Made by a program: the position numbers and the translations under genes. The notes beneath the pieces were generated by a model. It saw nothing but the letters and a program-made list of their open reading frames with translations, did no database searches and was not told where the DNA came from. From Defluviitaleaceae bacterium (GTDB lineage Bacteria > Bacillota > Clostridia > Lachnospirales > WQUN01), in contig WQVF01000006.1 in assembly GCA_009781725.1 (NCBI GenBank), forward strand, positions 1-64,000: 64,000 nucleotides of DNA, read 5' to 3'. This document shows positions 9,575 through 19,713 of the stretch, in pieces (within the stretch, counting starts at the first letter, position 1; each line of letters begins with the position of its first letter).

Positions 9575-9973
9575 ATAACATCACAAAAATACCAAATTAT
9601 ACATGTGCGCATATGTAGCTTGCACAACAACATGCACAGAGGCATTATTCACTACATAATTCGGTCATAGCCCACAAGCCACTATTTCATTGAATTATAT
9701 GGGCACACCAACTAGTCATTGAAAATAGCTATTAATGTTGCATTATGTCAAATATACCAAAAAATCAACATGCACATTGTCGAATATGCCATATTCCTCA
9801 ATACATATTGACTTATAAAAAAAAAAAACCACTACAATTACACAAACAACGGAATGTATAAACGCATTAATATATAGGTTCAGAACAATTATGTCCTCGT
9901 TTGCCGATTGCCATGATTTTCATCCCAGCTGTAAATCGGTCAAATAAATTTCTACAAATAGGAGGTGAAAATA
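9575..9973 (+). other. AT-rich 399-bp leader of the RiPP island
   Basis: This stretch has no convincing gene and is much richer in A+T than the sequence to its left. It contains the candidate promoter at 9808-9838, a 12-A run, and an 18-codon ORF at 9891 without a ribosome binding site. It ends with the AGGAGGTG site of the precursor peptide. The composition change marks the beginning of the island. Confidence 0.7.
9808..9838 (+). promoter_or_regulatory. candidate promoter of the RiPP precursor
   Basis: TTGACT (9808-9813) and TACAAT (9833-9838) match the sigma-A -35 and -10 boxes, spaced 19 bp, slightly longer than the ideal 17. The spacer is a run of A. It lies 136 bp upstream of the precursor start. 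Confidence 0.5.
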
Positions 9974-10063
9974 ATGACACGTAAATGGATTAAGCCAGGA
10001 TTCAAGAAATACAGTAATCGTTGGCTTTGTTGGAGCAAGCAGTCTCCAGGTGGTGGTGTCTAG
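9974..10063 (+). CDS. 29-residue RiPP precursor peptide with PqqA-like leader
   Basis: A 29-residue peptide preceded by a perfect AGGAGGTG site at 9960-9967 with six-base spacing. The N-terminal half is basic and holds W5-I-K7-P8-G-F10, which resembles the W-x-K-P-x-[F/Y] leader motif of PqqA, the peptide bound by PqqD. The C-terminal half has W17-L-C19-W20-S-K22 followed by Q-S-P-G-G-G-V. Downstream come two SPASM radical SAM enzymes and a PqqD-like protein, which is the usual company of such peptides. Trp, Cys and Lys are known targets of radical SAM cross-linking. That it is a substrate is inferred from context; too short for standard gene callers. Confidence 0.8.
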   Translation: MTRKWIKPGFKKYSNRWLCWSKQSPGGGV

Positions 10064-10327
10064 TAATAATGCATCAAAAAAATGCAAGTTAGATTGAGGA
10101 CCTGTGGCCAACGCCTACAACGCTGCATGAAAATAACGGTTTTGTAGTTTATAGCGTATCTCACGATGTAGCTATGGTGGTCGTGAAGAGAGCCTCTAAG
10201 AACTGCATTCCTGATGGTGTTGGCCCCAGATTCTAGCCATAATGTTTCTTTATGTAAGTTCCGTCCTAATTGCTTTGTAAAGGGGCATTTTGTAATTTAA
10301 TGTTTTTAGCATGAGGAGCTGAGTAAT
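10064..10327 (+). other. 264-bp spacer between precursor and first radical SAM gene
   Basis: No intact gene is supported. One frame (10069-10236) is open for 55 codons except for a TAG at 10090, and reads protein-like with no ribosome binding site for the second part. A weak promoter-like pair, TTGCTT and TAATTT with a 17-bp spacer, lies near 10268-10296. The spacer may lower expression of enzymes relative to precursor. I saw no clear terminator hairpin. Confidence 0.45.
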
Positions 10328-11455
10328 ATGTTCACAGGACCACTACAAGTAGACTTTGATATAACATTGAAATGCATGTATAGGTGTAAACACTGCAATG
10401 TGGCAGCAGGAGACGCTCTAAATGATGAAATGACTTTTGAGCAAATAAAAGAAGTTCTTAATCAACTAGATGATGAGGGCGTTAGTGATGTTTCGATAAC
10501 AGGTGGCGAACCACTGCTACGGAAAGATTGTCTTGATATTTTAGAGTATGCTTCGACAAAGCGTGGGTTTTTCTTGACATTGAATACAAACGGCCTATTG
10601 CTTACTCCAGACATAATAAAATTTTTTGAGGAAAAGTGTCCTGATATACATGTATGTGTAAGTCTTGATGGATACACGCCAGAAACATATAGCATATTGA
10701 GACAAAGAAGAGTTGATGCGGACGATATATTATCAGATGAGTTCAATACGGTAGTACATGCTCTTAGGTTACTGGTGCGGAGCAAACTTAAGTGCAGTGT
10801 AAACTACACTATTACCAAAGCAACTTTGCCTTATATCTATGATACATATGATTTTATTAAGAGAATAGGCATTAAATCAATTTTAGCAATAAAGTTTTTC
10901 CCATATGGCTACGGGAGACAAGGCAGAGATGTACTTGAGTTAGACTATAACTTATGGTCTGATTTTTTAATGAATCTCACAGTTAAAAAAACCACTGACT
11001 TACATTATAGAGGAATCCAAGTTTCAGTGACATGCCCATGGGAAATGTATTTACCTTTGTTAGATAATGGGTTTACACGTGATGATATTAATGACCTTTA
11101 TAATTACAACTCACCACTTGAGAGTGAGTTATATAGAAGATTTCGCTCCTTGGGGTGTCACGCCGGTGTCACGAGTTGCGCCATCTCACCAAATGGTGAC
11201 CTTTATCCTTGTGGAACAATATCGGCAAAATTCCCGCCTTTCATATGTGGAAATCTGAAAACCGAAAGTCTTCATAAAATATGGAATCACTCACCTGTGC
11301 TCAAAAACCTAAGAAGCCTAGATATTTCGGAATTAAAAGGTAACTGCTCTAGATGTCGCTTGTCAAAGCTCTGTGGAGGTGGGTGCAGAGCGCGAGCTTA
11401 TGTAGAATATGGGGATTTATGTGCCAAAGATTACTTGTGTCCTATAGTTGACTAA
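10328..11455 (+). CDS. radical SAM/SPASM peptide-modifying enzyme 1
   Basis: This 375-residue enzyme has the radical SAM cluster motif C16-M-Y-R-C20-K-H-C23 near the N-terminus, SITGGEPLLR for SAM binding, and a C-terminal SPASM domain. The SPASM cysteines appear as GCHAGVTSCAISPNGDLYPCG (about residues 277-297), then CSRCRLSKLCGGGCRARAY and a final CAKDYLCP. Such enzymes carry two auxiliary 4Fe-4S clusters and modify ribosomal peptides, usually by forming C-C, C-O or C-S cross-links. The ribosome site is GAGGAG. It overlaps or abuts the PqqD-like gene, forming an operon. Closest functional models are PqqE and other SPASM maturases. The exact chemistry is unknown. Confidence 0.93.
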   Translation: MFTGPLQVDFDITLKCMYRCKHCNVAAGDALNDEMTFEQIKEVLNQLDDEGVSDVSITGGEPLLRKDCLDILEYASTKRGFFLTLNTNGLLLTPDIIKFFEEKCPDIHVCVSLDGYTPETYSILRQRRVDADDILSDEFNTVVHALRLLVRSKLKCSVNYTITKATLPYIYDTYDFIKRIGIKSILAIKFFPYGYGRQGRDVLELDYNLWSDFLMNLTVKKTTDLHYRGIQVSVTCPWEMYLPLLDNGFTRDDINDLYNYNSPLESELYRRFRSLGCHAGVTSCAISPNGDLYPCGTISAKFPPFICGNLKTESLHKIWNHSPVLKNLRSLDISELKGNCSRCRLSKLCGGGCRARAYVEYGDLCAKDYLCPIVD

Positions 11456-11468
11456 GGAGATGAAAAAT

Positions 11469-11777
11469 ATGTCTATATTCGTGATTTCTGACAATAGTGA
11501 AAGATATAGGGTTCGCAAAGAGGACTCGGGTTGCACTATATTTAGCACACGATGCTATTTGGAAGCAAATGACACGGTTTACGAAGTCTTGCGCTTAATT
11601 TCTGAAAAAGGCGTTAAAGGCTGTATTGACGAATTATATTCACTTTATCCAGATGAGTCTGATGAAATAACTAACGATTTGATTGAGCTGGCTGAAAATT
11701 TCACCCAAGAGGGTGTTTTCCTTGAGTTATCTAAGGAGCTAAAAACAGCTTTATATGCAGGAGAATGTGAATGTTGA
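11469..11777 (+). CDS. PqqD-like RiPP recognition element protein
   Basis: This 102-residue protein has the PqqD-type winged-helix pattern: an N-terminal beta region (YRVRKEDSGCTIFSTRCYLEAN), a helix TVYEVLRLISEKG, then IDELYSLYP and a helix pair ending EEGVFLEL-like (TQEGVFLELSKE). PqqD proteins bind the leader peptide and deliver it to the radical SAM enzyme. The ATG at 11469 is chosen because AAGGAG at 11453-11458 is well spaced for it; an upstream TTG at 11448 would overlap the previous gene. The stop overlaps the start of radical SAM gene 2 (ATGTTGA), implying translational coupling. Sequence similarity to PqqD is by pattern only. Confidence 0.75.
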   Translation: MSIFVISDNSERYRVRKEDSGCTIFSTRCYLEANDTVYEVLRLISEKGVKGCIDELYSLYPDESDEITNDLIELAENFTQEGVFLELSKELKTALYAGECEC

Positions 11778-12907
11778 TTCCAAATCAATGCTATATTGAA
11801 CTCAATCAAAAGTGTAACCTTACGTGCGCGCATTGCTTTGCAAACGGTTCACCAGATGCATCTCCTGAGCTAACATATGAAGATGTAGTCAGTATCTATA
11901 AGCAACTTGAAAAACTTCCTCCTGTTTATGTAAACTTATCCGGCGGTGAGCCTCTATTAAACAATGATTTCTTTAAAATTGTCGAATTTGCTGCGAATTA
12001 TCCGTATGCAACATGTATCTTAACCAATGGGATTGGATGGGATAAAAATACGATTGATGAGCTGGCGGACAGGGTTCCCAATAAAAATGTAAGAATACAG
12101 ATTAGTATGGATGGCCCTTACGAAGTAATGGCAAAACAGCGGAATATAAGCAAAGAGCAGTATGATAAAATAATAGATAATGCCAAATATTTCAATGAAT
12201 GTGGATTTTCCGTTTCTGCGTTAACTGTAATAGACAAAGTAACTGCTCCACATGCAATAACAACTGCTCATAAAATGTTAGAAGATAATATCTTTCGTGC
12301 AGTGCAACTTGTACCTCTTTTTCTTACAGGAAGAGCCCTTGAGAATTTAGAAATGCTTGAAGATTTTTGGGAAAGTTGGTCCGAAATCGTAGTAAGAGTA
12401 ACAAAGATTATTAAGCATAATCGGTGGGGCAATCTAAGCAATCGCATAAACATCGGTTTTTTTACACTTTATGAGCTCTTTGTTCCTCTAGAAGACAATG
12501 ACATGATTGATGATGTTCTTAATGTATGGGGGCTTGATATAGAAAACCTTAGCAACTTTCGACACCAAATCAGGCGTCCGTTTTACTGTGAGTGTGGGCA
12601 AAGCGAGTTAACAATTTCATCTGAGATGAAATTGTTCCCATGTGTAGCATCTATAAGAACAGGTTTAACATGTGGAAGCTTGCGAAAGTCTGCAATTGAA
12701 GATATATGGAAGAATAGTACGGTTCTTAATTATTTTAGGGAAGATGCGGTTTCAGTTCGCTTAAATGAACCATGTGTGAGTTGCAGGCTCAAGGATTTTT
12801 GTGGTGGAGGCTGCCGCTTGGTTCCGTTGTCCATGAATGGAGATATTAATGGGCTTGATATCCGGTGTCCATATGTAATAAGGTTTATTAATAGCCAAAA
12901 TAATTAG
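11771..12907 (+). CDS. radical SAM/SPASM peptide-modifying enzyme 2
   Basis: A 378-residue enzyme with C15-N-L-T-C19-A-H-C22, the motif VNLSGGEPLLNND, and a SPASM domain. The latter shows CECGQSELTISSEMKLFPC, then CGSLRKSAIEDIW, CVSCRLKDFCGGGCRLV and RCPY. It is related to enzyme 1 but clearly divergent in the middle. The start overlaps the end of the PqqD-like gene by 7 bp. Two different SPASM enzymes served by one PqqD-like protein suggest two successive modifications of the same precursor, or one enzyme acting on a second target not visible here. Confidence 0.93.
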   Translation: MLIPNQCYIELNQKCNLTCAHCFANGSPDASPELTYEDVVSIYKQLEKLPPVYVNLSGGEPLLNNDFFKIVEFAANYPYATCILTNGIGWDKNTIDELADRVPNKNVRIQISMDGPYEVMAKQRNISKEQYDKIIDNAKYFNECGFSVSALTVIDKVTAPHAITTAHKMLEDNIFRAVQLVPLFLTGRALENLEMLEDFWESWSEIVVRVTKIIKHNRWGNLSNRINIGFFTLYELFVPLEDNDMIDDVLNVWGLDIENLSNFRHQIRRPFYCECGQSELTISSEMKLFPCVASIRTGLTCGSLRKSAIEDIWKNSTVLNYFREDAVSVRLNEPCVSCRLKDFCGGGCRLVPLSMNGDINGLDIRCPYVIRFINSQNN

Positions 12908-13009
12908 CCTAATCAAATACAACTCATTTTAATGTTTATAATTGCTGCAATTATCGGACTCTTTTCCCGCAATACGTCAACTACAGGTCTCTATTTAAGG
13001 TGGTATTTT

Positions 13010-13717
13010 GTGGACATTAATTATGTAGATGGCAATTGTATTACGGAGCAAAGTATGGTTGTAGAAATTATGCTTGGCTTATGTTTGCCAAAAGCAGTTT
13101 ATATCTCAGATGAAAGCAGACGAACATGTGAGTGCATTATTTCTGAATGTATCGAGTTACTACGTTCACATTACTGCATCGACGCTTTTCATCCATCACG
13201 TATTATTATTCATTTCACTATGGATGAAAAGTTTCTTAAACTTAAGGCACCAATATTTGGAGCATCATGTTGTGTGGATAACCATCTGACTATTGTAATC
13301 GTATCTGGTATCCAAATGAGCTTGTTTCGAAGAGTTTTTATGCATGAGTATATACATATATGTAGGCTGAGCTTACGTAACATCATTACTCAAGCTGCGT
13401 ACTTAGAGCATATTAAGTGTTCGTTATCGGTCTTGTATGAAGAGATTGTAGCTATTTCATTTGAAAAATACCTGTTGAATTGCTCATGGAAAGAAGTATC
13501 AAACATTAGTTATAATAAAATTTGGGAGCAGTGGGATAGTTATGGCCTCTATAAATTATACAACAACGCTAATTACCTAAAGAAATTAGACTCCCCCTCA
13601 AAGATAGTTTACTTTGCGAATTATATTGCCAAAAGCTTCGTAAAAGAAGTCGACTTACTAAAGCTCTTTAACATGAATCATCTTGAAGGTCTCAGCTATC
13701 TTTACAAAAAGGCATAA
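13010..13717 (+). CDS. HExxH putative metallopeptidase of the RiPP island
   Basis: This 235-residue protein, not recognised as a named family, has the zinc motif H112-E-Y-I-H116. About 28 residues further there is LYEEIVAISFE, where Glu144 or Glu145 could be the third zinc ligand, as in gluzincins. There is no signal peptide from the chosen start. GTG at 13010 is preferred because AAGGTGG sits six bases upstream; the frame is open back to an ATG at 12932 with no ribosome site and an odd hydrophobic extension. Lying between the maturases and the exporter, it is a good candidate for leader removal. It could equally be a self-protection peptidase. Activity is inferred from the motif alone. Confidence 0.65.
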   Translation: MDINYVDGNCITEQSMVVEIMLGLCLPKAVYISDESRRTCECIISECIELLRSHYCIDAFHPSRIIIHFTMDEKFLKLKAPIFGASCCVDNHLTIVIVSGIQMSLFRRVFMHEYIHICRLSLRNIITQAAYLEHIKCSLSVLYEEIVAISFEKYLLNCSWKEVSNISYNKIWEQWDSYGLYKLYNNANYLKKLDSPSKIVYFANYIAKSFVKEVDLLKLFNMNHLEGLSYLYKKA

Positions 13718-13750
13718 CCGTTGCAATTGGAAATAGGAAGGGGCAAAGTC

Positions 13751-14917
13751 ATGTCTAGACTCCGCTTATTCATTATCGCAAATAAAGCTGTAACTGGCCT
13801 ATTAAGCGCGTTGTTTAATGGTATCTGTACTGCCTATTTAATTAGCAAGGGATTTGACTTGTTCGCAATTTCAAAGTATTTTAGTTTGTCTTTAATTATC
13901 TCACCACTCCTAAGAATTCCATTAGGCTATTTGGCAGATAGGGTTGGGCGAAAAAAAGTTTATAGCTGTGGTCTACTATTGCGAGCAATGCAGGGATTTA
14001 TACTTATTGCGGGACAAAGTATGTTTTCGCTTTATATGGCTGCTATTGCAGAGGCTGCCTATAGTGCATTAATTAGCGGCTCACTGGAAGCATGGCTAAA
14101 AGGCACAGTTCAACAACATGGTATATCAATTAATTACCCACGTTTATTTGGGATAAGCAAATTTGTTGGCTCATTGGTTTCCATAGTGACCATTTTTAGC
14201 ATTGGCTTTTTCCTTGATATTCAGCTTGAAGGGATTATACGAGTAATATCAATTATATACTTATCAGTTTCTATGTGTAATCTTCTAATTTACAAAGATC
14301 AAAAAGGTGAATCAGAGACAATTGCTATTGATATAAGAAGAATTATTTCTGCTGTGGCTAAAAATAAAAAGGTTCATTATTTATGTTTTATATTAACAAC
14401 AGGTTTCATACTCATTTCTGTATATATGCTTTATTTTCAAGCAAAAGCATTGGAAATAGGTGTGCTTGAATCTAGTCTATTGATTTTAGCTTCAATCGGA
14501 GCCCTCGGTAGCGGGATTTCTGCATTTGTCTATTCAAAGATTGGAAAAAAGGTAAATGTACGACAAATTATGCCTTTGTTGTTCATAGGTGTTCTCGCTA
14601 GCTTCATAATCATGAACTTTTCACATAACATAGTTATGCTTGGTGTTGGCAATTTCATGTATGGTATTAGTATGGGGCCTCTTATGCCAATCTTCTATTC
14701 ATGGGCACTTGACTCTATAAGCAACGACTATACCTCAACATTAATTTCATTTATGACAGCAGTTGCAACAGTTGCAGCCGCAGTTGCGACGATTGTCATT
14801 GGTTATCTTATTAATAACATGGGGTTAACATATGCAATTTATTCAGGTATAGTGCTTGGTGCTATAAGCATCACCTTCTTGTTGTATATGAATAAGGTAA
14901 TAAAAACTCAAAAATAA
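13751..14917 (+). CDS. MFS transporter, probable peptide exporter
   Basis: The 388-residue protein has about 12 hydrophobic spans and the MFS motif A, GYLADRVGRKKV, between the second and third spans, with a partial second copy near the middle. The ATG at 13751 follows AGGAAGGGG and is preferred over the upstream TTG at 13721. It probably exports the mature peptide or gives immunity; a single-component MFS pump instead of an ABC exporter suggests a small, cytoplasmically finished product. Codon use is AT-rich like the rest of the island. The substrate is inferred from context. Confidence 0.88.
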   Translation: MSRLRLFIIANKAVTGLLSALFNGICTAYLISKGFDLFAISKYFSLSLIISPLLRIPLGYLADRVGRKKVYSCGLLLRAMQGFILIAGQSMFSLYMAAIAEAAYSALISGSLEAWLKGTVQQHGISINYPRLFGISKFVGSLVSIVTIFSIGFFLDIQLEGIIRVISIIYLSVSMCNLLIYKDQKGESETIAIDIRRIISAVAKNKKVHYLCFILTTGFILISVYMLYFQAKALEIGVLESSLLILASIGALGSGISAFVYSKIGKKVNVRQIMPLLFIGVLASFIIMNFSHNIVMLGVGNFMYGISMGPLMPIFYSWALDSISNDYTSTLISFMTAVATVAAAVATIVIGYLINNMGLTYAIYSGIVLGAISITFLLYMNKVIKTQK

Positions 14918-14977
14918 ACAAATAAGCTAACACAACGCACTATAATTCTAGCACCCAATATAGAGGAGGACGATATT

Positions 14978-15958
14978 GTGACAGAGCATTATGCATTTGT
15001 TGAGGAGAATTACTTTCGAATCAAGAGTTGTGAGCTAGTAAGAAAGAATATTGGCATTTCCTATAAGGTTATTGATTTTTCTGATAATAAATATATATTA
15101 AAAATTAATCCATCTATCCATGAGTCATTAACTGGATTGCAATATTGCGTTGAGGGCATTAGCTCAGAAATCAAAATCATTAAAAGTATTCCAAACAATA
15201 AATGGTTTAATGTTCCTACACCAATTAAAAATAAAGATGGAAACTTCATATCATATTGCCATGATTCTTGCGGGAATTTATGCTCTGCATATTTATTAAA
15301 ATGGATAGATGGCGTAACACTGGAGAATTGTAATGGCGAAATGGATAAAACAATAAAGCAATTCGGTGTCAGCCTTAGCAGACTTCATAACATGATGAGT
15401 GAGGTCAGTGCAAATAAAGACCTCCAAAGACCGATATACAATATAGAGAAGTTTGAAATTATTATTTCTAAACTTCAAAAGGCGATAATTGATAACATTA
15501 TTACCGAAAGTAATTTCCAAATATTTTTGAATACTTTTAGACATGCCAAAGAGATAATAAGGACTTTACATAAAGACAGAAGCACTTATGGTCTCATTCA
15601 CGCTGACCTGCAAGGAAGCAATATAATTATTGGAGAGGAATGTAAAATTGGATTCATTGATTTTACTGCTTCAGGATATGGATTTTACTTGCATGACGTA
15701 GCTGATGCAATTGCTACTATGAACACGGAATCAAGGCCAGCCTTTTTATATGCTTATAATGACAATTGTGAGTATGATGCCCACAGCTTACATGTAATTA
15801 GCACATTTGCTATATTGACATATTTAAATGCATACAGTATGCATTTGAATAACAAAAATATGTCGAGGTGGATATCTGCTAATTCTGACTATCTTGCAAT
15901 ACAAATCTGCCCACGGTATTTGCGCGGAGAGAGTATCTGCTATGATATCCACATTTAG
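14978..15958 (+). CDS. APH/choline-kinase-fold phosphotransferase in the RiPP island
   Basis: This 326-residue protein has a protein-kinase-like (APH) fold. The catalytic loop is H208-A-D210-L-Q-G-S-N215 and the metal-binding Asp is D228 in GFIDFTASG, followed by HDVADAIATM. The N-lobe has YILKINPS, with a Lys where the ATP-binding Lys is expected. The GTG start follows GAGGAGGA. Members phosphorylate small molecules such as aminoglycosides, choline or homoserine. Here it may tailor the peptide or a cofactor, or inactivate the product for immunity. The real substrate is unknown. It is the last gene of the AT-rich island. Confidence 0.8.
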   Translation: MTEHYAFVEENYFRIKSCELVRKNIGISYKVIDFSDNKYILKINPSIHESLTGLQYCVEGISSEIKIIKSIPNNKWFNVPTPIKNKDGNFISYCHDSCGNLCSAYLLKWIDGVTLENCNGEMDKTIKQFGVSLSRLHNMMSEVSANKDLQRPIYNIEKFEIIISKLQKAIIDNIITESNFQIFLNTFRHAKEIIRTLHKDRSTYGLIHADLQGSNIIIGEECKIGFIDFTASGYGFYLHDVADAIATMNTESRPAFLYAYNDNCEYDAHSLHVISTFAILTYLNAYSMHLNNKNMSRWISANSDYLAIQICPRYLRGESICYDIHI

Positions 15959-18362: not shown

Positions 18363-19343
18363 TTATAAATAATAGCGCAAGGATTCCTCGTAGTACTCGG
18401 CGTCCAATTCCGGGGAATTGCCTTCTTTGCACAACCAATGCCGGATATGGAAACAAAGTATGCATTTATCCGGATACCCTTCCGGCCTCGGAGTAAAGCC
18501 ACAACTTTGTGCATAGTCAAGGAGCACGGCAACACCTCCTGAGAGAAGTGCCTCGAAGACGGGATATTTATCAACTGGTATACCTTTTATTCCTTCTAGC
18601 AAAGGGATGGCAATACCTGTACATCCCGGGGGTATAAACCGCCCGTGCATATCCACATGAAAATGGTCTGTAGATAACAACCCTCGGCAGGGTTTATTGC
18701 TAATGATATCTTCCAGAGGCTTGTTGGGAGAATATTCCTCCGCGATATTGACAGCGCGGCCTCCATATCTAAGGCCATAGGCCTGGGCAGTTTCATAAAT
18801 AATTCCCCGGGAAATATTTTTCTCAAGCTCGGCCCGGTTATGGGTCTTTTCCGGATTCAATCCTCTCATCATGGACAGAAATCGCTCTTGCCATAAGAAA
18901 TATCCGAAACCTGCCTGGCGGCACCATTCCGCAAGGCGCAAGGGAGCGGCATATGGCACATATTCTGCATGGAAAGGATCTACTGAAATACAGAAGGTAT
19001 CCGCCCCGGCGTCAGCCAATGCTGCAAGACGGGATTTGACCATGCTCTTCTCCTTGGCCCAATAACCGTTTGTCTCAATATATTCTACATTGATACCGTG
19101 GGTGTCTGCGGTTTTCAGCAGCGCAAGTAGGCCGTCAAAATCCAGAAAAGGCTCACCGCCTCCAATGTGTACACTACGGCAGCCTCCTTCCCGTAAGGCT
19201 ACACAGGTAGCCTCCATGCTCTTGCGAGACATATATCCACCTGAACGGGTCATAGAGCAGGCATAAAGACAGTGTCTACAGGCGGCAGTGCATTTATAAT
19301 TGGGCATTATACCACCGTGGCTAAGTGAACCGAGTTTTATCAT
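18363..19343 (-). CDS. radical SAM protein of unknown substrate
   Basis: A 326-residue radical SAM protein with the cluster motif C-T-A-A-C-R-H-C near residue 20, SVHIGGGEPFLDF, and ETNGYW in the core. The C-terminal part has extra cysteines (PPGCTG, then SCGF and PDKCILCFHIRHWLC) that could bind one auxiliary cluster, but the full SPASM pattern is not evident. AGGAGGGG precedes the ATG at 19343; an earlier in-frame start is less likely. About 100 bp upstream on the same strand is a 42-codon Arg/His/aromatic peptide gene. A role in peptide modification is possible but unproven. Confidence 0.85.
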   Translation of the reverse strand: MIKLGSLSHGGIMPNYKCTAACRHCLYACSMTRSGGYMSRKSMEATCVALREGGCRSVHIGGGEPFLDFDGLLALLKTADTHGINVEYIETNGYWAKEKSMVKSRLAALADAGADTFCISVDPFHAEYVPYAAPLRLAEWCRQAGFGYFLWQERFLSMMRGLNPEKTHNRAELEKNISRGIIYETAQAYGLRYGGRAVNIAEEYSPNKPLEDIISNKPCRGLLSTDHFHVDMHGRFIPPGCTGIAIPLLEGIKGIPVDKYPVFEALLSGGVAVLLDYAQSCGFTPRPEGYPDKCILCFHIRHWLCKEGNSPELDAEYYEESLRYYL

Positions 19344-19375
19344 GGCTACCCCTCCTTGTCCCAGAGAATATACCA

Positions 19376-19415
19376 CAATAAAAATGGGACTGTCCCCTGT
19401 CAGAGAACAGCCCCC
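19376..19415 (-). terminator. terminator between small peptide and radical SAM genes
   Basis: On the minus strand GGGGGCTGTTCTCTGACAGG folds onto GGGGACAGTCCC and is followed by ATTTTTAT. It would end the small-peptide transcript, or allow limited readthrough into the radical SAM gene. Confidence 0.55.
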
Positions 19416-19444: not shown

Positions 19445-19573
19445 TTACCAAAACAACTGACGCCGATGCCATGGAAAGAATCGATGGAAGCGGTGACGCA
19501 TCGGCCGTCGTGTAACGAATGGCCAACCGAATCGGCCGCCAAAGATATGGTGTCTACCCCAAGGTCCATGCAT
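19445..19573 (-). CDS. 42-residue cationic His/Arg/aromatic-rich peptide
   Basis: The ATG (19573-19571) follows AAAGGAGG with seven-base spacing, a strong site. The peptide begins M-H-G-P-W-G-R-H-H and ends P-W-H-R-R-Q-L-F-W. It has many Arg, His, Phe and Trp residues and no acidic ones at all. Aromatic-x-Arg triplets recur (W5-G-R7, F29-H-R31, W35-H-R37). The longer in-frame ORF upstream is ignored because the ribosome site decides the start. It could be a metal- or nucleic-acid-binding peptide, a membrane-active peptide, or a substrate of the adjacent radical SAM enzyme. I recognise no named family. Confidence 0.6.
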   Translation of the reverse strand: MHGPWGRHHIFGGRFGWPFVTRRPMRHRFHRFFPWHRRQLFW

Positions 19574-19681
19574 GGTATGTCCTCCTTTGCCTGGGAAATT
19601 ATTATGCCAGGCTTGTATTATGGTACATACTATGCTGATTTTGGACAAAGGGTGAAGGATGATACTTTGGTAGAAGTACAT

Positions 19682-19713
19682 AAAAAATCCATATGATATC
19701 ATATGGATTTTTT
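19682..19713. terminator. bidirectional terminator after the LysM/kinase operon
   Basis: AAAAAATCCATATGAT pairs perfectly with ATCATATGGATTTTTT. It lies 10 bp after the stop codon of the kinase gene on the minus strand and also faces away from the peptide gene. Confidence 0.8.

Follow-up and report, generated by a model that had tools for sequence, protein, structure and literature searches.

A cassette of seven genes lies on the forward strand of the 64,000 nt stretch of DNA analysed here (the window), in the order precursor peptide, radical SAM/SPASM maturase (rSAM1), predicted leader-binding protein (RRE), second radical SAM/SPASM maturase (rSAM2), HExxH protein, MFS exporter and APH-fold kinase, and it probably represents a full RiPP gene set (Table 1). 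All of the genes named in the original prediction were found in the order and on the single strand that it gave. Its description of them as AT-rich was also borne out, with the GC content of the cassette lower than that of the flanks and a third-position GC of 0.30-0.35 in the cassette compared with 0.41-0.50 in neighbouring genes, and the overlap that it noted between the PqqD-type gene and that of the second enzyme amounts to 7 nt. The start that it had set for the cassette, position 9575, takes in approximately 400 bp of non-coding DNA. Elsewhere in the window we noted, on the reverse strand, a radical SAM gene without a SPASM match (18363-19376), for which the nearest family was the YydG peptide epimerases (1.6e-15, below the cut-off), and close to it a short His/Arg/Trp-rich ORF (MHGPWGRHHIFGGRFGW...; 19445-19702, reverse strand).

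Table 1. Features of the candidate RiPP cassette in the window.
Feature	Position	Strand	Evidence
Shine-Dalgarno sequence of precursor gene, AGGAGGTGA	9960..9968	+	Sequence match
Precursor gene, 29 aa, MTRKWIKPGFKKYSNRWLCWSKQSPGGGV, start ATG 9974	9974..10063	+	Gap-free conservation in L032 and L057
Invariant core R16-W17-L18-C19-W20-S21-K22 (RWLxWxK)	10019..10039	+	Proposed modification sites, inferred
rSAM1, radical SAM/SPASM maturase, 375 aa	10328..11455	+	Pfam Radical_SAM 1.9e-20, SPASM 5.5e-11; best NCBIfam model WgkB 3.4e-52, below cut-off
RRE, PqqD-type leader-binding protein (predicted), 102 aa	11469..11777	+	Pfam PqqD 9e-4; L057 ortholog 2e-11; model pLDDT 90.5
rSAM2, second radical SAM/SPASM maturase, 378 aa	11771..12907	+	Pfam Radical_SAM 3.4e-19, SPASM 4.6e-6; orthologs in L057 and L032
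HExxH protein (HEYIH, then YEEIVAISFE), putative gluzincin-like metallopeptidase, accessory	13010..13717	+	Motif only; likely start GTG 13010
MFS exporter (predicted)	13751..14917	+	Pfam MFS_1 3.9e-25; likely start ATG 13751, alternative TTG 13721
APH-fold kinase, accessory	14978..15958	+	Pfam APH 9.9e-13

The perfect ribosome site claimed for the 29-codon gene proved to be the strongest Shine-Dalgarno sequence among the short ORFs tested on either strand between 9350 and 16080. A second precursor in the interval 10064-10327 was rejected, as no other short ORF there has a good ribosome site; this interval is single-copy in the genome and folds no better than shuffled sequences (z -1.2). Two further loci were recovered, one (L032) in a Bacillota MAG when a genome collection was scanned with rSAM1 together with two relatives from plasmids, the other (L057, in genome G624) by a phylum-wide search. 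In each, rSAM1 is preceded by a short ORF that has a good ribosome site and encodes MWSKPKVKITAGRWLKWGKEGLT in L032 and MKKWIVPKADFVSGRWLKWDKDSVVEE in L057. The three precursors align without gaps (WIKPGFKKYSNRWLCWSK, WSKPKVKITAGRWLKWGK and WIVPKADFVSGRWLKWDK) and share, from the first Trp onwards, the pattern W-x-x-P-x8-R-W-L-x-W-x-K with no change in length. Each of the three genomes has the invariant core RWLxWxK upstream of rSAM1. When the corresponding upstream regions were Markov-shuffled 3000 times each, the core arose in 0, 1 and 0 of the shuffles, and it occurs nowhere else in 596 kb of loci. Although 29-codon ORFs are common, and one could lie by chance beside radical SAM genes that make no RiPP, the region's best Shine-Dalgarno sequence together with a gap-free motif in three genomes that shuffling hardly ever reproduces leaves this reading extremely improbable. 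Strong hairpins of 16 and 13 bp separate the precursor gene from rSAM1 in the two related loci (L032:571-616 and L057:6275-6304), where they are possibly partial terminators yielding more precursor than enzyme; none comparable was seen between the two genes in the window.

The gene order precursor-rSAM1-RRE-rSAM2 is identical in the three loci, with amino acid identities of 45-46% between rSAM1 and its L032 and L057 orthologs, 33-37% among the RRE orthologs and 34% between rSAM2 and its L057 ortholog; the rSAM2 proteins form one clade (support 100/100). To judge from these sequences, the precursor, the RRE-fold protein and the two SPASM enzymes are a conserved four-gene core of three distant genomes. 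The original prediction of a RiPP pathway had been made dependent on the short peptide being conserved beside homologous enzyme pairs in other genomes, and both are present in L032 and L057; that prediction is supported by the conservation of the precursor, by the RRE and by the pair of SPASM maturases, and we hold with high confidence that the cassette is a RiPP pathway. Downstream of rSAM2 the loci diverge, with a B12-binding radical SAM gene in L032 and L057 and the HExxH, MFS and kinase genes in its place in the window. An MFS gene is also found downstream in L057 (24% identity to the window protein), no counterpart of the kinase was found in L032 or L057, and the HExxH protein has none in the other clusters; the genes for the B12-radical-SAM enzyme, the HExxH protein and the kinase are accessories that vary between clusters. 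The L032 copy is decayed or misassembled, because its rSAM1 lacks the N-terminus carrying CxxxCxxC and its rSAM2 is frameshifted. Near-identical 76-codon frames lie on the same strand on either side of the L057 cluster (L057:4333-4563 and 12771-13001), and are perhaps a direct repeat from a mobile element.

The Radical_SAM and SPASM domains score above the Pfam cut-offs in both rSAM1 and rSAM2, and no radical SAM or SPASM cysteine is missing from rSAM1. WgkB was the top-scoring NCBIfam model for both window enzymes, for both L057 enzymes and for three of the four rSAM1 relatives scanned from the wider family, but at 177.6 and 124.5 bits the window enzymes fall far short of its family cut-off (NF050035, 650 bits) and by this measure are WgkB relatives rather than members. 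The model for the dynobactin maturase DynA scored below WgkB, and the ScmE and ScmF models of SynChlorMet (cut-off 400) gave 90.8 and 101.7 for rSAM1 and, for ScmE, 65.4 for rSAM2. The original label of the precursor as PqqA-like did not hold, and PqqA identity was rejected: the peptide contains no Glu, and hence no PQQ-making Glu-Tyr pair, and the two enzymes reach only 80.9 and 98 bits against the PqqE equivalog cut-off of 381.35. Their scores against the mycofactocin MftC equivalog were 111.4 and 81.1 (cut-off 265). A precursor, a PqqD-type protein, a SPASM enzyme and an HExxH protein do recall PQQ and mycofactocin operons, and the mycofactocin and PqqE models give scores as high as 111 and 98 bits; the peptide might on this basis become a redox cofactor or small molecule, like PqqA and MftA, rather than a secreted peptide. 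With the Glu/Tyr pair absent, both cut-offs missed, an exporter present, no cofactor-using dehydrogenase beside the cassette, and a cassette that is rare and foreign-looking, we consider that fate very unlikely.

The 102-aa protein is a predicted RRE of the PqqD type. Its Pfam PqqD match lies below threshold and its structure model consists of beta strands followed by three helices. VIA-align placed the TbiB1-leader complex (Z 8.6), lasso B1 (8.0) and PqqD (6.8) all within the first five entries, Z values near the level possible by chance, and Foldseek with the same model gave no significant match, so the prediction is carried by the L057 ortholog and its sequence match to PqqD. The HExxH protein had no Pfam match, no convincing NCBIfam match and no relatives in plasmids or phages, and its single-sequence structure model (pLDDT 37) was unusable.

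Searches also recovered more distant relatives of rSAM1 (33-38% identity), from Shouchella, Alkalihalophilus and Mesorhizobium and, on plasmids, from Deinococcus and Streptomyces; the peptides encoded upstream of them are FKPAFEATQVTSMQWNRT, FKPAFEATQVSSMQWNRT, SMHWNRT, SMQWNRT and FAPSFEAPVGTDAMRWPRH. Of the two core Trp residues these precursors retain the second (QWNR or RWPR) but not the one three positions before it, the motif being W-N-R in Shouchella, Alkalihalophilus, Mesorhizobium and D. radiodurans and W-P-R in Streptomyces. In Shouchella and Alkalihalophilus the spacing is P-x11-W-x-[K/R], which places Pro and Trp 12 residues apart, as are P8 and W20 in the window; in Streptomyces the distance is one residue longer. 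The W-N-R and W-P-R clusters resemble the window cluster in their homologous rSAM1 and, in Shouchella, Alkalihalophilus and Deinococcus, in a PqqD-like protein, but differ in having one SPASM enzyme with reduced SPASM cysteines and no first Trp, and the Bacillaceae W-N-R precursors in a tail of approximately 35 aa. A second, B12-type radical SAM enzyme, a carbamoyltransferase and in some cases a P450 are added in the W-N-R clusters.

Several features of these relatives are recorded here in their own right. The W-N-R loci L033, L034, L035 and L036 (Shouchella clausii and others) encode a SPASM radical SAM enzyme, a B12-type radical SAM enzyme and a carbamoyltransferase, with a PqqD-like protein in Bacillaceae and a P450 in Shouchella, and several SPASM cysteines of the window rSAM1 are missing from the W-N-R rSAM1; a partial literature search found no published description of a W-N-R RiPP family. 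The cluster on plasmid CP1 of D. radiodurans R1 (L028:4788-5990) is probably broken, because its precursor is apparently divided over two frames and is separated from the radical SAM gene by an ISDra5 transposase gene; the same IS occupies this position in the BRD125 plasmid (L030). On the Streptomyces jietaisiensis plasmid a short peptide, METFAPSFEAPVGTDAMRWPRHTS, is encoded upstream of the rSAM1 relative (L029:7789-7863), and prolyl oligopeptidase, methyltransferase, MFS and FMN monooxygenase genes follow downstream.

We propose, as a reasonably probable reading, that the cassette makes and exports a RaS-RiPP modified at W20-K22 by rSAM1 and at W17 by rSAM2. The RRE would bind the N-terminal W..P leader and hand the peptide to both enzymes, rSAM1 would form a carbon-carbon link between Trp20 and Lys22 (W20-S21-K22), the counterpart of the WgkB reaction on W-G-K in tryglysin, and rSAM2 would modify W17 together with R16, L18 or residue 19. 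Next, the leader may be cut off, at a guess by the HExxH protein, the doubly modified peptide would be exported by the MFS protein, and the APH-fold kinase might, again as a guess, tailor the product or protect the producer. This division of labour is suggested because the single-SPASM relatives keep only the second Trp, while rSAM2 is found only where the extra Trp occurs. Action of rSAM1 on W20-x-K22 is moderately likely; that of rSAM2 on W17, which draws on co-occurrence in few lineages of shared ancestry (three known members of the two-SPASM family), is evenly balanced. The bond type is not transferable from WgkB, whose cut-off lies far above the scores of both enzymes, and it is doubtful that the exact bond is a WgkB-type benzindole. 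Only tentatively do we suggest that two related SPASM enzymes served by one RRE place two different linkages on the neighbouring Trp residues of RWLxWxK to give an undescribed bicyclic Trp-Lys peptide.

Rather than a second crosslink, rSAM2 might carry out an epimerisation, a dehydrogenation or the formation of a thioether at Cys19. Thioether formation is common for SPASM enzymes and residue 19 of the window peptide is Cys, but the residue is Lys in both L032 and L057 and a Cys thioether therefore cannot be the conserved reaction; we regard these other activities of rSAM2 as unlikely. It is similarly unlikely that the two Trp residues and Lys form two fused rings (Trp-Trp and Trp-Lys) as in daropeptides, with two enzymes doing the work of DarE. 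The darobactin core is WNWSKSF, so that W-S-K is common to both cores, and the two Trp residues always occur together in the window, L032 and L057; yet the spacing here is W-x-x-W as opposed to W-x-W, the cluster has an RRE and a second SPASM enzyme, and WgkB outscores DynA. In darobactin itself the links are an ether between the Trp residues and a C-C bond between Lys and Trp (PMC9055067).

The cluster is very rare, with one further genome in approximately 1,000 screened and one more from the collection scan. A further rSAM1 ortholog was present in one of 398 genomes of the phylum (G624) and in none of 391 genomes of the class, 392 of the order or 150 relatives of G624, these samples overlapping, and no close relatives were found in viral contigs. 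Two genus mates keep the left neighbours of the cassette (peptidase-like, response regulator and histidine kinase genes); the cassette is absent from the stretches examined in them and an rSAM1 ortholog from both genomes. The cassette was probably acquired horizontally and recently.

On its sequence features the window cluster is a RaS-RiPP cluster, because it combines a short precursor, a SPASM enzyme, an RRE and an exporter: the Radical_SAM and SPASM domains carry CxxxCxxC and the SPASM cysteines, a conserved short precursor lies beside the maturase, and there is an RRE, as in many though not all members. Clark and Seyedsayamdost reportedly presented an atlas of RaS-RiPPs in 2022, and the RWLxWxK family may have been listed earlier; our partial literature search found no description of a two-SPASM family on this core. 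Precedents for a RiPP operon with two radical SAM enzymes are ruminococcin C (PMC8188230) and streptococcal RaS-RiPPs (PMC13361665). The window cluster shares with SynChlorMet (ScmD/E/F) and ruminococcin C (RumMC1/RumMC2) the presence of two radical SAM/SPASM enzymes, although RumC is a multi-Cys sactipeptide, and with PQQ (PqqA/D/E) and mycofactocin a PqqD-type protein and a SPASM enzyme, but with no Glu in the peptide, scores below the cut-offs and an exporter. Darobactin has W-S-K with a second Trp shortly before it, but one enzyme (DarE) and a different Trp spacing.

Tryglysins with a single W-G-K link stopped the growth of several streptococci at 100 nM (PMC13361665), and a related two-Trp, two-enzyme family is a lead toward an antibacterial peptide. 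The family also offers a small test case (a 29-residue substrate and three genes) of how two SPASM enzymes work with a single RRE and of the identity of each bond, and the wider W-x-[K/R] family (Shouchella, Deinococcus, Streptomyces) allows enzymes and motifs to be compared across phyla. The tryglysin/WGK operon wgkABCD occurs in Streptococcus mutans and S. ferus, and mature tryglysin B is VNCWGKH (PMC8092268), to which LCWSKQ in the window and LKWGKE in L032 are close; the tryglysin motif is W-G-K, whereas here it is W-S-K in the window, W-D-K in L057 and W-G-K in L032 only. As in tryglysin, a short precursor with W-x-K near its C-terminus is encoded in one operon with a SPASM maturase, an RRE and a transporter. 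No Rgg/SHP regulator like that of tryglysin operons was seen at the cassette, and unlike tryglysin, which has one SPASM enzyme, the cluster has two, an extra invariant RWL three residues before and a C-terminal tail past the core. The original view that the cluster matches no described RiPP class was therefore overstated, in that WgkB is the best named model and W-S-K is placed like the W-G-K of tryglysin; judged on sequence, the cluster most resembles tryglysin, to which it adds a further Trp and a further radical enzyme.
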